A stretch of 38,629 nt of DNA from Chloroflexota bacterium (GTDB taxonomy: Bacteria > Chloroflexota > Dehalococcoidia > DSTF01 > RBG-16-68-14): the NCBI GenBank assembly GCA_022562155.1, contig JADFPV010000020.1, positions 1 to 38,629 of the forward strand, given 5' to 3'. Every line of letters begins with the position of its first letter. The stretch's first letter is position 1. A program made the position numbers and the translations under genes. This document shows positions 2,962 through 26,191 of the stretch, in pieces. The notes under the pieces were generated by a model, which saw only the letters and a list, made by a program, of their open reading frames with translations, searched no databases and had not been told where the DNA came from.

Positions 2962-2991
2962 TTGACAAGGCTGAATAGAACATGTATTCTA
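2962..2991 (+). promoter_or_regulatory. Sigma70-like promoter with overlapping LexA/SOS-box-like palindrome
   Basis: TTGACA (2962-2967) - 17 nt - TATTCT (2985-2990). Imperfect palindrome TAGAACATGTATTCTA (2976-2991) covers the -10 and is close to the Gram-positive LexA box GAACnnnnGTTC with one mismatch. Confidence 0.6.
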
Positions 2992-3021: not shown

Positions 3022-3795
3022 ATGACCGAAAACGCATTCGACGCAAGCAAGTATCTCACGAAACTCAGCGGCAAGGACTACCTGGAAGTGAAGTGGCGCC
3101 TCCTCTGGCTGCGCACCGAACATCCGGACGCCGTGATTGAGACCGAGCTGGTCAAGCATGGAGCCGGCCTGGCGCTCTTCAGGGCTAGGGTCACGATTCC
3201 GGGAGGCGGCATAGCGACCGGCTGGGGCAGCGAGACGGCGGACGATTTCGGCGACTTCATCGAGAAGGCGGAGACGAAGGCGCTGGGCCGGGCGCTGGCC
3301 GCGCTCGGCTACGGCACGCAGTTTTGCGAGGACTTCGACTTCACCGCTGAGACGGCACTCGAGCCTCAGCGAAAGCGCCAGTCTCCATCCACATCCGGCC
3401 CCGCAAAGTCCGGATCAGTACAACGAGCGAAGCGGCGCGTCGTCGATGCGCCGGTCTCCCGCAACGGGCTACAGGTCCTGCGGGACGGTAACGGCGTGGC
3501 GACGACATCGCAGGTGAAGGCGATCTACTCCATCGCACGCGACGCGGGGGGCGACGAGGACGCGGTCGAGGAGCGTTGCCGCGCGGTCTTCAGCTGCGCG
3601 CCGGCCGAACTGACGAAGCAGCAGGCCTCGGAGTTCATCGACCTGTTGCGGGAGACGACGGCGGCCGTGAGCGGCCGAGCCGTCGGGAGCGGCCGGACTG
3701 CCGCTGTGGCCAACGACAATCGGGCGGCTGCCGTAGCGAGTGACCGGCAAGGCGCCGTGCCGAGCGACCGGCACGCCGCAGCCCAGCCTGCCTAA
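3022..3795 (+). CDS. Rad52/DdrA-like single-strand annealing protein candidate (conserved hypothetical)
   Basis: Start at 3022 after AGAAAGGGGCGGGGAA. YLEVKWRLLWLRTEHPDAVIETELV...GWGSETADDFGDFIEKAETKALGRALAALGYGTQF resembles ssDNA-annealing/Rad52-like proteins. C-terminal ATTSQVKAIYSIARDAGG...LTKQQASEFIDLLRE resembles the C-terminal module common in phage annealing proteins. Confidence 0.6.
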   Translation: MTENAFDASKYLTKLSGKDYLEVKWRLLWLRTEHPDAVIETELVKHGAGLALFRARVTIPGGGIATGWGSETADDFGDFIEKAETKALGRALAALGYGTQFCEDFDFTAETALEPQRKRQSPSTSGPAKSGSVQRAKRRVVDAPVSRNGLQVLRDGNGVATTSQVKAIYSIARDAGGDEDAVEERCRAVFSCAPAELTKQQASEFIDLLRETTAAVSGRAVGSGRTAAVANDNRAAAVASDRQGAVPSDRHAAAQPA

Positions 3796-21919: not shown

Positions 21920-23011
21920 CTACCCTGCCAGCGCCGCTTCGATCTCCTCCGCCTGTTCCGGGTAGCGCGAGGCGTACGCGCGCACCAGGCCGAAGCAGCC
22001 GCTGATCATCATGTCGCCGTGGGGCGTCGCGAAGTAGGGGTCGAGCCTGCTACCGCGTAACCGTCCGCGCTGTGGCCCTGTGACCGCCAGGAAGGGCTTC
22101 GCGCCGTTCGCTTCGGACTCCGCGTAGAAGACGCCGTGGCCCTTGCTATCGAAGACCTCTTCGTGCGCCAGCGTGCCGGCGATGAGGCGCTCAGTGAAAT
22201 CCTCAATCTGCTCGGTCGTCATCTCGCCTGTGTGGTGCTCATAGAGACTGTGGATGTGTGTATCCCGCAGGTGGAACGCGAGCGCGTGCATGTTGCCCAA
22301 GTTCAAGACGAGCTGCTCCTCGGCATCTGCCACCTGCGGGTCCTGAAGCGCTCCCAGCGCCGCTGCCGGGCCGGTGTCGAGGAACACGGTCGGCACGTCC
22401 ACGTCGACGCCTGAGAGCATGGTGCGCGCGCGAGTGAGATAGTCCGGCAGCTCGTCCGGCAGGCAGGCGAAGGCGCAGAGGTCGTTCTCTTTGGAGACGA
22501 CGCGACGCAGGTGGTCGAAGCGGAAGAGCCGGTCCGAGTAGTCCGGCGGCGAATTGCCGTGGTCGAGGCAGCCTAACGCCAAGCCATCGAAGTCGACGGC
22601 GACATCGAACGCCGAGAGCGCAGCCCGGATCGCGCCCAGGTCGAGGTCGCGTAGCTCGATGCGGTCGACGTCAACGAGGGCCTCGCCCTCTTCGTCCGAG
22701 ACGATTCGCACGCCGATCGCCTCAACCCGCGTCAGGTCGTCATCGAACGTCCGCGCTGCCTCCGCGGTCGCGTAGGCAACCCCGCCCGCCTTCAGGTGGT
22801 CCTCCAACGCCCAGTGGCAAGGGCCCCCTCCCTGGATGACACCCGTGAGGTAGACCGAGCGCTTGGCCTGCGTCGCCCGGCGGATTTTGCCCTCCGCGAT
22901 TTTCGTCGCGCTGGGCATCACGAGCTTGACGCTGTTCTCGATGGCGCCGGACGAGTCGAACACCAGGATGTCCTGCGTGCCGGTGCCCATATCGATGGCG
23001 AGGATGCGCAT
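21920..23011 (-). CDS. DUF1786-family ASKHA-fold protein
   Basis: MRILAIDMGTGTQDILVFD phosphate-1-type motif; full-length pattern consistent with DUF1786. Confidence 0.75.
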   Translation of the reverse strand: MRILAIDMGTGTQDILVFDSSGAIENSVKLVMPSATKIAEGKIRRATQAKRSVYLTGVIQGGGPCHWALEDHLKAGGVAYATAEAARTFDDDLTRVEAIGVRIVSDEEGEALVDVDRIELRDLDLGAIRAALSAFDVAVDFDGLALGCLDHGNSPPDYSDRLFRFDHLRRVVSKENDLCAFACLPDELPDYLTRARTMLSGVDVDVPTVFLDTGPAAALGALQDPQVADAEEQLVLNLGNMHALAFHLRDTHIHSLYEHHTGEMTTEQIEDFTERLIAGTLAHEEVFDSKGHGVFYAESEANGAKPFLAVTGPQRGRLRGSRLDPYFATPHGDMMISGCFGLVRAYASRYPEQAEEIEAALAG

Positions 23012-23050: not shown

Positions 23051-23074
23051 TACCGCGCATTGAAATGCGCGGTA
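23051..23074. repeat. Perfect palindrome with GA core (11-bp arms)
   Basis: TACCGCGCATT-GA-AATGCGCGGTA. Confidence 0.9.
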
Positions 23075-23228: not shown

Positions 23229-23248
23229 CTGCGGACTTCAGTCCGCAG
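23229..23248. repeat. Palindrome with TC core (9-bp arms)
   Basis: CTGCGGACT-TC-AGTCCGCAG. Confidence 0.9.
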
Positions 23249-23274: not shown

Positions 23275-23318
23275 CCACCCGCCGGACGAGGAAGGTAAGA
23301 GGAAAATCCGGCGGGTGG
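23275..23318. repeat. Long inverted repeat (12-bp perfect arms)
   Basis: CCACCCGCCGGA (23275-23286) / TCCGGCGGGTGG (23307-23318); extendable by flanking ACCCAA/TTGGGGT with a 1-nt bulge. Confidence 0.9.
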
Positions 23319-23340
23319 CTTGGGGTCGGGGAGAACTCGA

Positions 23341-23372
23341 TCGAGCAGTGGTTGTGGTGGGAGACTGCTCGA
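23341..23372. repeat. Inverted repeat (9-bp perfect arms)
   Basis: TCGAGCAGT (23341-23349) / ACTGCTCGA (23364-23372). Confidence 0.9.
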
Positions 23373-23395
23373 CCGAGCTGGTTACGGGACGTGAA

Positions 23396-23494
23396 CTACA
23401 GACGCGGATCCGTTAGCTCACCCGTGTACCACTGATGAAAGAGATACGCGCTCGAGAGCAACAGTACGAGCACGAGAACTAATGCGAAGGTCAT
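23396..23494 (-). CDS. 32-aa single-TM small protein (not in ORF track)
   Basis: MTFALVLVLVLLLSSAYLFHQWYTGELTDPRL, preceded on the minus strand by AAGGGGGaccggaac (SD-like) and, about 80 bp further up, a TTGACA-17-TATAGT promoter. Confidence 0.6.
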   Translation of the reverse strand: MTFALVLVLVLLLSSAYLFHQWYTGELTDPRL

Positions 23495-23553
23495 GTTCCG
23501 GTCCCCCTTGGTCTGGCTTCGGCCACTCCACGTGGAGCGTCCGTCTCGCATAT

Positions 23554-23603
23554 ATGTTCTTGGCGAACATCCGTACTATAGAACAGGCATGCTGATTTGT
23601 CAA
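23554..23603 (-). promoter_or_regulatory. Strong sigma70-like promoter with downstream inverted-repeat operator
   Basis: Minus strand TTGACA (23598-23603) - 17 nt - TATAGT (23575-23580), then ATGTTC-GCCAA-GAACAT (23554-23570) at about +5 to +20. Confidence 0.65.
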
Positions 23604-23669: not shown

Positions 23670-23689
23670 CTGCGGACTGAAGTCCGTAG
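23670..23689. repeat. Palindrome with GA core
   Basis: CTGCGGACT-GA-AGTCCGTAG (one wobble). Confidence 0.85.
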
Positions 23690-23705: not shown

Positions 23706-23725
23706 CTGCGCATTTCAATGCGCAG
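23706..23725. repeat. Palindrome with TC core (9-bp arms)
   Basis: CTGCGCATT-TC-AATGCGCAG. Confidence 0.9.
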
Positions 23726-25321: not shown

Positions 25322-26191
25322 TCACAGCTCCGCTTCTTTCAGTCGTGCGCTGTGGCACTGGAGGTTGACGGCCACAGGCATCGCAGTGATATGCGTCGGG
25401 TAGGTCTCGATGTTCACCGCGAGCGCCGTGTTGATGCCGCCGACCGCCTGCGGCCCCACGCCCAGCGCGTTGACGCGCTCCAGCAGCTCCCTTTCGAATT
25501 CCGCCGTCTCAGCGTCCGGACTCGGGTTGTCGACGCTGCGGATGACACCCTTCTTCGCCAGATACATCGCGTACTCGGACGAGCCGCCGACGCCCACGCC
25601 TACGATCAGCGGCGGGCAGGGATTCCCGCCCGACTCTTCGATCGTACGCAGGACGAAATCGACGATGGGCTCCTTGCCTGCGGAAGGCAGGAAGACCTTG
25701 AAGGCGCTCATGTTCTCACAGCCGCCGCCCTTCGGCAGCACTTTTAGCTTCAGCCCATCGCCCGGGACGATGTCGACGTGCACAACAGCGGGCGTGTTGT
25801 CTTTCGTGTTTACGCGGCTGGAGAACGGGTGGTCGACCATCGAGGCGCGCAGGTACCCTTCCGTGTAGCCCTTCGCCACGCCCGCGTTGATCGCGTCCGT
25901 CAGTAAGCCGCCGACGATGTGCACGTCCTGCCCCAGCTCGACGATGACAACCGTCGTGCCCGTGTCCTGGCACAGCGGCAGTTGTTCGTTCTTCGCGATA
26001 TCGACGTTCTGCAGGATCTCGACAAGCACCTGCTTGCCCAGCTCGGACTGCTCAGTGTCTCTCGCACGTTCGATGCTGGCGACGACGTCTTCCGGCAGGA
26101 AATGCGTCGCCTCTTGGCACAATTCGGCGATTGTGGCCGTGATCTCGTCCGCGTTGATTTCGCGAACGCCAGTAGGTGTGTCTGTTGTCAT
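25322..26191 (-). CDS. Class I fumarate hydratase alpha subunit
   Basis: LPLCQDTGTTVVIVELGQDVHI, DNTPAVVHVDIVPGDGLKLKVLPKGGGCENMSAFKVFLPSAG, VGVGVGGSSEYAMYLAKKG. Confidence 0.93.
   Translation of the reverse strand: MTTDTPTGVREINADEITATIAELCQEATHFLPEDVVASIERARDTEQSELGKQVLVEILQNVDIAKNEQLPLCQDTGTTVVIVELGQDVHIVGGLLTDAINAGVAKGYTEGYLRASMVDHPFSSRVNTKDNTPAVVHVDIVPGDGLKLKVLPKGGGCENMSAFKVFLPSAGKEPIVDFVLRTIEESGGNPCPPLIVGVGVGGSSEYAMYLAKKGVIRSVDNPSPDAETAEFERELLERVNALGVGPQAVGGINTALAVNIETYPTHITAMPVAVNLQCHSARLKEAEL

Follow-up and report, generated by a model that had tools for sequence, protein, structure and literature searches.

The microprotein gene and its promoter

The window, a stretch of 38,629 nucleotides from an uncultured Dehalococcoidia bacterium, carries on its minus strand an unannotated frame of 32 amino acids behind a promoter with several predicted LexA boxes (Table 1). 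The working labels f1, f2, f3, f4, f22 and f29 denote families in the class Dehalococcoidia, f1 being the window gene's own. The elements described by the first-pass annotation of this DNA are found in place: the hydrophobic frame, given there as 33 codons and consisting of 32 codons plus the stop, the Shine-Dalgarno-like AAGGGGG, and the TTGACA-17-TATAGT promoter, with its spacer of 17 nt.

In a six-frame search of 60 relatives, the peptide is present once in its own genome, in four of five relatives of the same family (71-87% identity), and as weaker matches across the order beyond the family. The aligned frames of G000 and G002 differ by 2, 0 and 12 changes at codon positions 1, 2 and 3, respectively. 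Across the f1 alignment, substitutions again fall mostly at third codon positions, and the UTR and 3' region vary freely. Conservation and codon pattern rule out a chance ORF and mark the 32-aa frame as a real gene, as expected from the original proposal of a small single-TM membrane protein; the conservation of frame and operator, which that proposal had named as the point to check, is found in relatives for both the peptide and the upstream boxes.

Promoter-like sites this good are by themselves not rare (one found, 0.4 expected by shuffling), and the site is raised above chance because the upstream promoter/box pattern and the protein are both conserved. The arrangement TTGACA-N12/13-(T/C)GTTCTAYNGTAC...TGTTC precedes the orthologous frame in all 11 genomes compared, which come from two families. 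Scanning the DNA of public genomes with a 39-nt promoter pattern returns 12 loci, of which seven are the microprotein gene and five lie in other groups. One of these five (L048, in Oscillospiraceae, a Firmicute) is, by our reading of the protein, a uvrB promoter, and its match to the pattern is an independent sign of an SOS promoter layout.

Table 1. Features of the microprotein locus, and a further predicted LexA box, in window coordinates
Feature	Position	Strand	Details
-35 element TTGACA	23598..23603	-	Identical in all five f1 members
LexA box 1 (predicted)	23580..23593	-	AGCATGCCTGTTCT, other strand AGAACAGGCATGCT; in the -35/-10 spacer; 10.5 bits
-10 element TATAGT	23575..23580	-	Lies within GTTCTATAGTAC; unchanged among the five f1 members
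LexA box 2 (predicted)	23564..23577	-	AGTACGGATGTTCG, other strand CGAACATCCGTACT; overlaps the end of the -10; 12.2 bits
LexA box 3 (predicted)	23547..23560	-	AGAACATATATGCG, also read as GAACATATATGC; 10.3 bits
Shine-Dalgarno-like AAGGGGG	23503..23509	-	8 nt before the ATG; purine-rich variants aligned in relatives
Microprotein ORF	23396..23494	-	32 codons and TAG, ATG at 23494; codes for MTFALVLVLVLLLSSAYLFHQWYTGELTDPRL; single-TM
3' hairpin 1	23336..23377 (arms)	-	-25.3 kcal/mol, z -7.8; sequence not conserved
3' hairpin 2	23275..23318	-	-25.8 kcal/mol, z -5.6; among relatives, only G002 and G005 have a similar one
LexA box (predicted)	2977..2990	+	AGAACATGTATTCT; 16.9 bits, best in the window; upstream of ORF 3022-3795

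LexA boxes and predicted SOS control

The lexA and recA genes of the window genome were looked for in its assembly and not found, presumably because the assembly is incomplete, and LexA specificity is consequently taken from close relatives. At 16 lexA loci of relatives, the -10 of the promoter is followed by an AGAAC-N4-(G/A)TT(C/T) box, in sequence the Gram-positive type of LexA box. The box matrix used here is trained on lexA promoters only, with eight distinct lexA boxes from these relatives. Boxes in the recA promoters of relatives combine one perfect and one degenerate half, reading GAACAAATGTCT or GAACAGATGTAC in f4 and GAACGTTTATGC in f1, where the degenerate second half is the same as in the window gene. 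These genomes thus share GAAC-N4-GTTC boxes in their lexA and recA promoters with the Gram-positive LexA regulon (Cheo box), except that the second half-site is here often degenerate (GTAC, ATGC), which the presence of two or three boxes in tandem may offset.

The seven best matrix sites in the window are at 2977, 23564, 23580, 23547, 25822, 32536 and 625. Those at 25822, 32536 and 625 are single sites and are taken to be chance. The microprotein promoter carries three boxes of the organism's type, GAAC-N4-GTTC, about 16.5 bp apart. Box 1, also read as GCATGCCTGTTC, keeps its position in all f1 and f4 members, and box 2, also read as GTACGGATGTTC, is conserved in the same members. The positions orthologous to box 3 in four family relatives read AGAACGAACGTTCC, AGAACGCATATTCT, AGGACACGCGTTCG and CGAACACATATTCG and score 13.1-16.3 bits, with AGAACGAACGTTCC, AGAACGCATATTCT and CGAACACATATTCG close to perfect.

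The first-pass annotation had taken an inverted repeat, ATGTTC-GCCAA-GAACAT, for the operator and had considered its geometry unlike a textbook LexA box. The repeat is present after the -10, but it is not an operator dyad: it is made of the facing half-sites of boxes 2 and 3 and exists because these boxes are spaced 17 bp apart. Matrix and alignment both identify the GTTC-N5-GAAC repeat as this junction and rule it out as an operator. The reservation about geometry is withdrawn, as all three boxes have the GAAC-N4-GTTC form of the relatives' lexA and recA promoters. An alphaproteobacterial-type direct repeat, GTTC-N7-GTTC, was also rejected; it is not the pattern of the lexA or recA promoters. 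The suggested SOS-type control is borne out as a prediction from three boxes of the relatives' lexA/recA type, conserved across six families, and LexA very probably binds the microprotein gene, which would be induced accordingly.

A likeness had also been pointed out between this promoter and a GAACATrTAT stretch at 2976. The similarity is real (at 2978), and it falls in the box with the best LexA score of the window, just after a TTGACA hexamer. The plus-strand ORF that follows encodes 257 aa matching a phage family of unknown function (phrog_27776, E 6e-22). This ORF is predicted to be a second SOS gene of the window; its product is possibly, at a guess, a recombination protein.

Distribution across Dehalococcoidia

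When 11 peptides of two families are built into a profile (A1), weak matches appear in another four families of the class. The DNA upstream of these matches, which was not used in the search, has a promoter of the same sort: TTGAC, a LexA box whose final GTTCTA merges with the -10, and, 16-37 bp further on, another box. A second profile (A2), searched over 396 genomes and complemented by targeted fetching, yields 57 members in the six families named above. A box of >=8.0 bits lies upstream of every one of the 57, and for 52 of them there are two or three, most often spaced by 16-17 or 30-34 bp; in random windows, two boxes occur in 0.2-1.3%.

Because the promoters of some A2 rows had already been viewed before these rows entered the profile, a clean subset is given separately. 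It comprises 38 new matches (E<=1e-3) that were found by protein only and lie outside the profile, 31 of them with a box and 27 with two. The seven without a box comprise four f4 paralogues that follow a lysine-rich gene, a second copy in G010, a fragment internal to a transporter, and a chance match. Matches inside long ORFs have no box at the threshold (best 7.2 bits).

The second f4 paralogue, found downstream of a lysine-rich (KKPAAKK) gene and ending LKAA, is apparently independent of LexA. Its loci (L108, L109, L110, L111 and L112, in G014, G013, G008, G011 and G015) have no boxes and were set aside. In an AT-richer genus of f29 (G250, G282 and G258; L161, L164 and L168), the LexA boxes form a near-perfect, mirror-image pair set 20 bp apart, and the tail differs, reading RNIN; the sites in G250, AGAACAGGTGTTCT and AGAACACCTGTTCT, are ideal.

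Distant members rest on promoter and motif jointly; single-TM sequences are easily matched by composition. Among the members that score weakly against the profile there could be unrelated helices, for which chance pairing with two boxes is unlikely. A class-level family of TM microproteins under predicted LexA control is well supported, the SOS control being drawn from comparison. A search of 301 genomes of the phylum gives one weak match outside the class, inside a 331-aa frame, and the named records with the gene are Dehalococcoidia or Chloroflexi MAGs. At this sensitivity the family looks restricted to the class. The lexA gene is present in 257 of 296 class genomes, and its presence alone does not explain the distribution of the family.

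Protein features

AlphaFold2 models the window peptide as one helix spanning residues 2-24 (mean pLDDT 88). Residues 1-19 are free of charge in 49 of the 57 members, including the window protein, whose helix has no charge at all. The juxtamembrane motif is LLxQWxxGxL: after the helix comes QW, QF, QY or EW, usually followed by G-x-L. Members range from 26 to 73 aa. No Pfam or NCBIfam model is matched significantly, and five members checked for a LysM domain have none. PHROGs returns weak matches only, to phrog_33013 (function unknown, E 0.005) and to a spanin (E 0.08), such as a bare TM helix might give.

The tail is short, with an acidic character in f1-f3 and most of f4 and a basic one in most f29 members. 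Among complete f29 proteins, 22 of 33 end in AA, mostly RRAA, with G376 adding one more, and such ends are expected in about 2% of proteins given that alanine makes up 14% of tail residues. A conserved f29 tail, FP(H/R)LAPP followed by RRAA at the C terminus, is seen for example in L090, L144, L146 and L155. Since ClpXP recognises the ssrA tag by its C-terminal AA, rapid turnover can reasonably be proposed for f29 members, where RRAA may, tentatively, be a degron. This suggestion excludes the window protein, which ends in DPRL and, like its f1 relatives, has no RRAA.

A candidate SOS division inhibitor

Between bacterial groups, SOS division inhibitors show no sequence relationship, and they are short enough to be missed by gene calling. 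Those known outside the relatives of E. coli are small single-TM proteins (PMC4211646, PMC13396833). SidA, of 29 aa, targets FtsW (PMC4211646); YneA binds TM7 of FtsW, and models place SosA, ChiZ and SidA on FtsW too (PMC13396833).

Taken as a whole, the locus is best explained as an SOS-induced, single-TM microprotein that is, somewhat more probably than not, a SidA-like division inhibitor. SidA of Caulobacter crescentus has the same size of about 30 aa, a single TM helix and a stand-alone gene under LexA control, which is predicted here. It differs in phylum and in LexA box type, shares no family model, and has no counterpart of the f29 RRAA tail; the two are likened by build, not by alignment. 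With YneA, SosA and ChiZ the family has in common a single N-terminal TM helix, a GAAC-N4-GTTC-type LexA box and possible proteolytic turnover, whereas its members are much shorter and have no LysM domain. Many Gram-positive SOS division inhibitors adjoin lexA (PMC6851548); in the loci examined the microprotein gene does not, which counts against a division inhibitor.

On the side of the target, SEDS proteins (FtsW/RodA) are encoded by all 14 carriers in a sample against 54 of 128 class genomes, a weak argument: the carriers fall into only about three independent clades, and the association could reflect shared ancestry. The window genome encodes two SEDS proteins, so that an FtsW-type target is present. 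No SulA was found in 20 relatives, the window genome included. By analogy, inhibition of division is somewhat probable for the microprotein, and FtsW is a possible target of it.

The same protein might instead have another job in the membrane, such as the control of a transporter, of a membrane protease or of the respiratory chain when DNA is damaged. One-helix microproteins that tune larger membrane complexes are numerous, and LLxQWxxGxL could be any docking surface. Such a role is nonetheless unlikely: the gene stands alone among varied neighbours (DUF1786, MiaB-like and others) that supply no partner gene, and an SOS-only promoter fits a checkpoint better.

Somewhat less likely still is an SOS toxin of the TisB type, in which the peptide would assemble in the membrane and dissipate the proton-motive force, leaving dormant, damage-tolerant cells, possibly with an antisense RNA as a check. 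TisB and DinQ of E. coli are depolarising single-TM toxins under LexA and resemble the family in size, single helix and (here predicted) LexA control (PMC8309996, PMC3567139). The helix of TisB, however, bears four charged residues that form a polar stripe, a feature at odds with the uncharged segment of most members. A divergent or antisense promoter is neither called near the gene nor conserved in the f1 alignment, no structured 5' leader is seen to be conserved, UTR length and sequence vary freely, and the 5' leader in the window folds with a z of only -1.9. The group acting on FtsW/FtsI is favoured over the depolarising toxins in that the charge stripe is absent, no conserved antisense RNA is visible, though one may exist, and all sampled carriers have SEDS proteins.

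That the transcript matters and not the peptide, as a leader or small RNA controlling a downstream DUF1786 gene, is very improbable: this gene follows on the strand of the microprotein frame in the window, in G013 (f4) and in G071 (f29), and strong hairpins follow the frame, but selection acts at the protein level, other members have different neighbours, and neither hairpins nor UTR are conserved.

As a SidA-like inhibitor, the protein would work as follows. In the undamaged cell, LexA dimers bound to the tandem boxes, two or three in number, would cover the spacer, the -10 and the transcript start, keeping a near-consensus promoter shut. On damage, LexA cleavage stimulated by RecA would free the promoter, and a protein of 26-73 aa would be made in a burst and insert as one uncharged helix with its LLxQWxxGxL motif. 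It would then bind a septal membrane protein, with FtsW, on the model of SidA and YneA, as the foremost candidate, and delay division until the DNA is repaired. In many relatives the C-terminal RRAA may mark the protein for ClpXP, letting division resume quickly. The complete picture, an unrecognised Dehalococcoidia family of SOS checkpoint proteins in which one TM helix docks on FtsW and stops septation, with removal through an RRAA degron in one large family, is offered as a tentative proposal.

The original finding holds and is exceeded: the family extends over the class, and by analogy a SidA-like checkpoint role is the leading interpretation. No paper on a Chloroflexi SOS effector was found in the open-access literature, and if the proposal is true this would be, to our knowledge, the first SOS effector of the phylum. 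It would also be evidence that unrelated bacteria repeatedly invent the same kind of inhibitor, and would mean that members as short as 26 residues act as checkpoint proteins. The largely uncultured Dehalococcoidia would gain a testable DNA-damage checkpoint, and the peptide, natural and very small, is a candidate for binding the septal cell-wall machinery. The candidate family came to light when a weak protein profile was combined with the LexA boxes of the organism itself, and the recipe of a short TM frame with tandem LexA boxes is applicable to other phyla.

Surrounding locus

The two strong hairpins reported downstream of the frame are present on the minus strand. They are not conserved in sequence among relatives and hence form no defining part of the system; alignment likewise rules them out as a conserved regulatory RNA, and they look like variable 3' structures, probably transcript ends. 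The downstream DUF1786 gene lies at 21920-23011 (-) in the window; the loci that share this arrangement in f4 and f29 are L010 (G013) and L092 (G071), respectively, and other members differ.

Palindromes with TTCA/TGAA loops, GCGCATTTCAATGCGC and GCGGACTTCAGTCCGC, occupy 23055-23070, 23231-23246, 23672-23687 and 23708-23723. Each sequence occurs exactly twice in the 2.77-Mb genome at <=1 mismatch, and the two pairs flank the microprotein gene, nested and in inverted order. The palindromes are REP-like, which does not explain why the paired stems are unique to the microprotein locus. Relatives have similar GC-rich stems with TTCA/TGAA loops, some of them next to GTAG.
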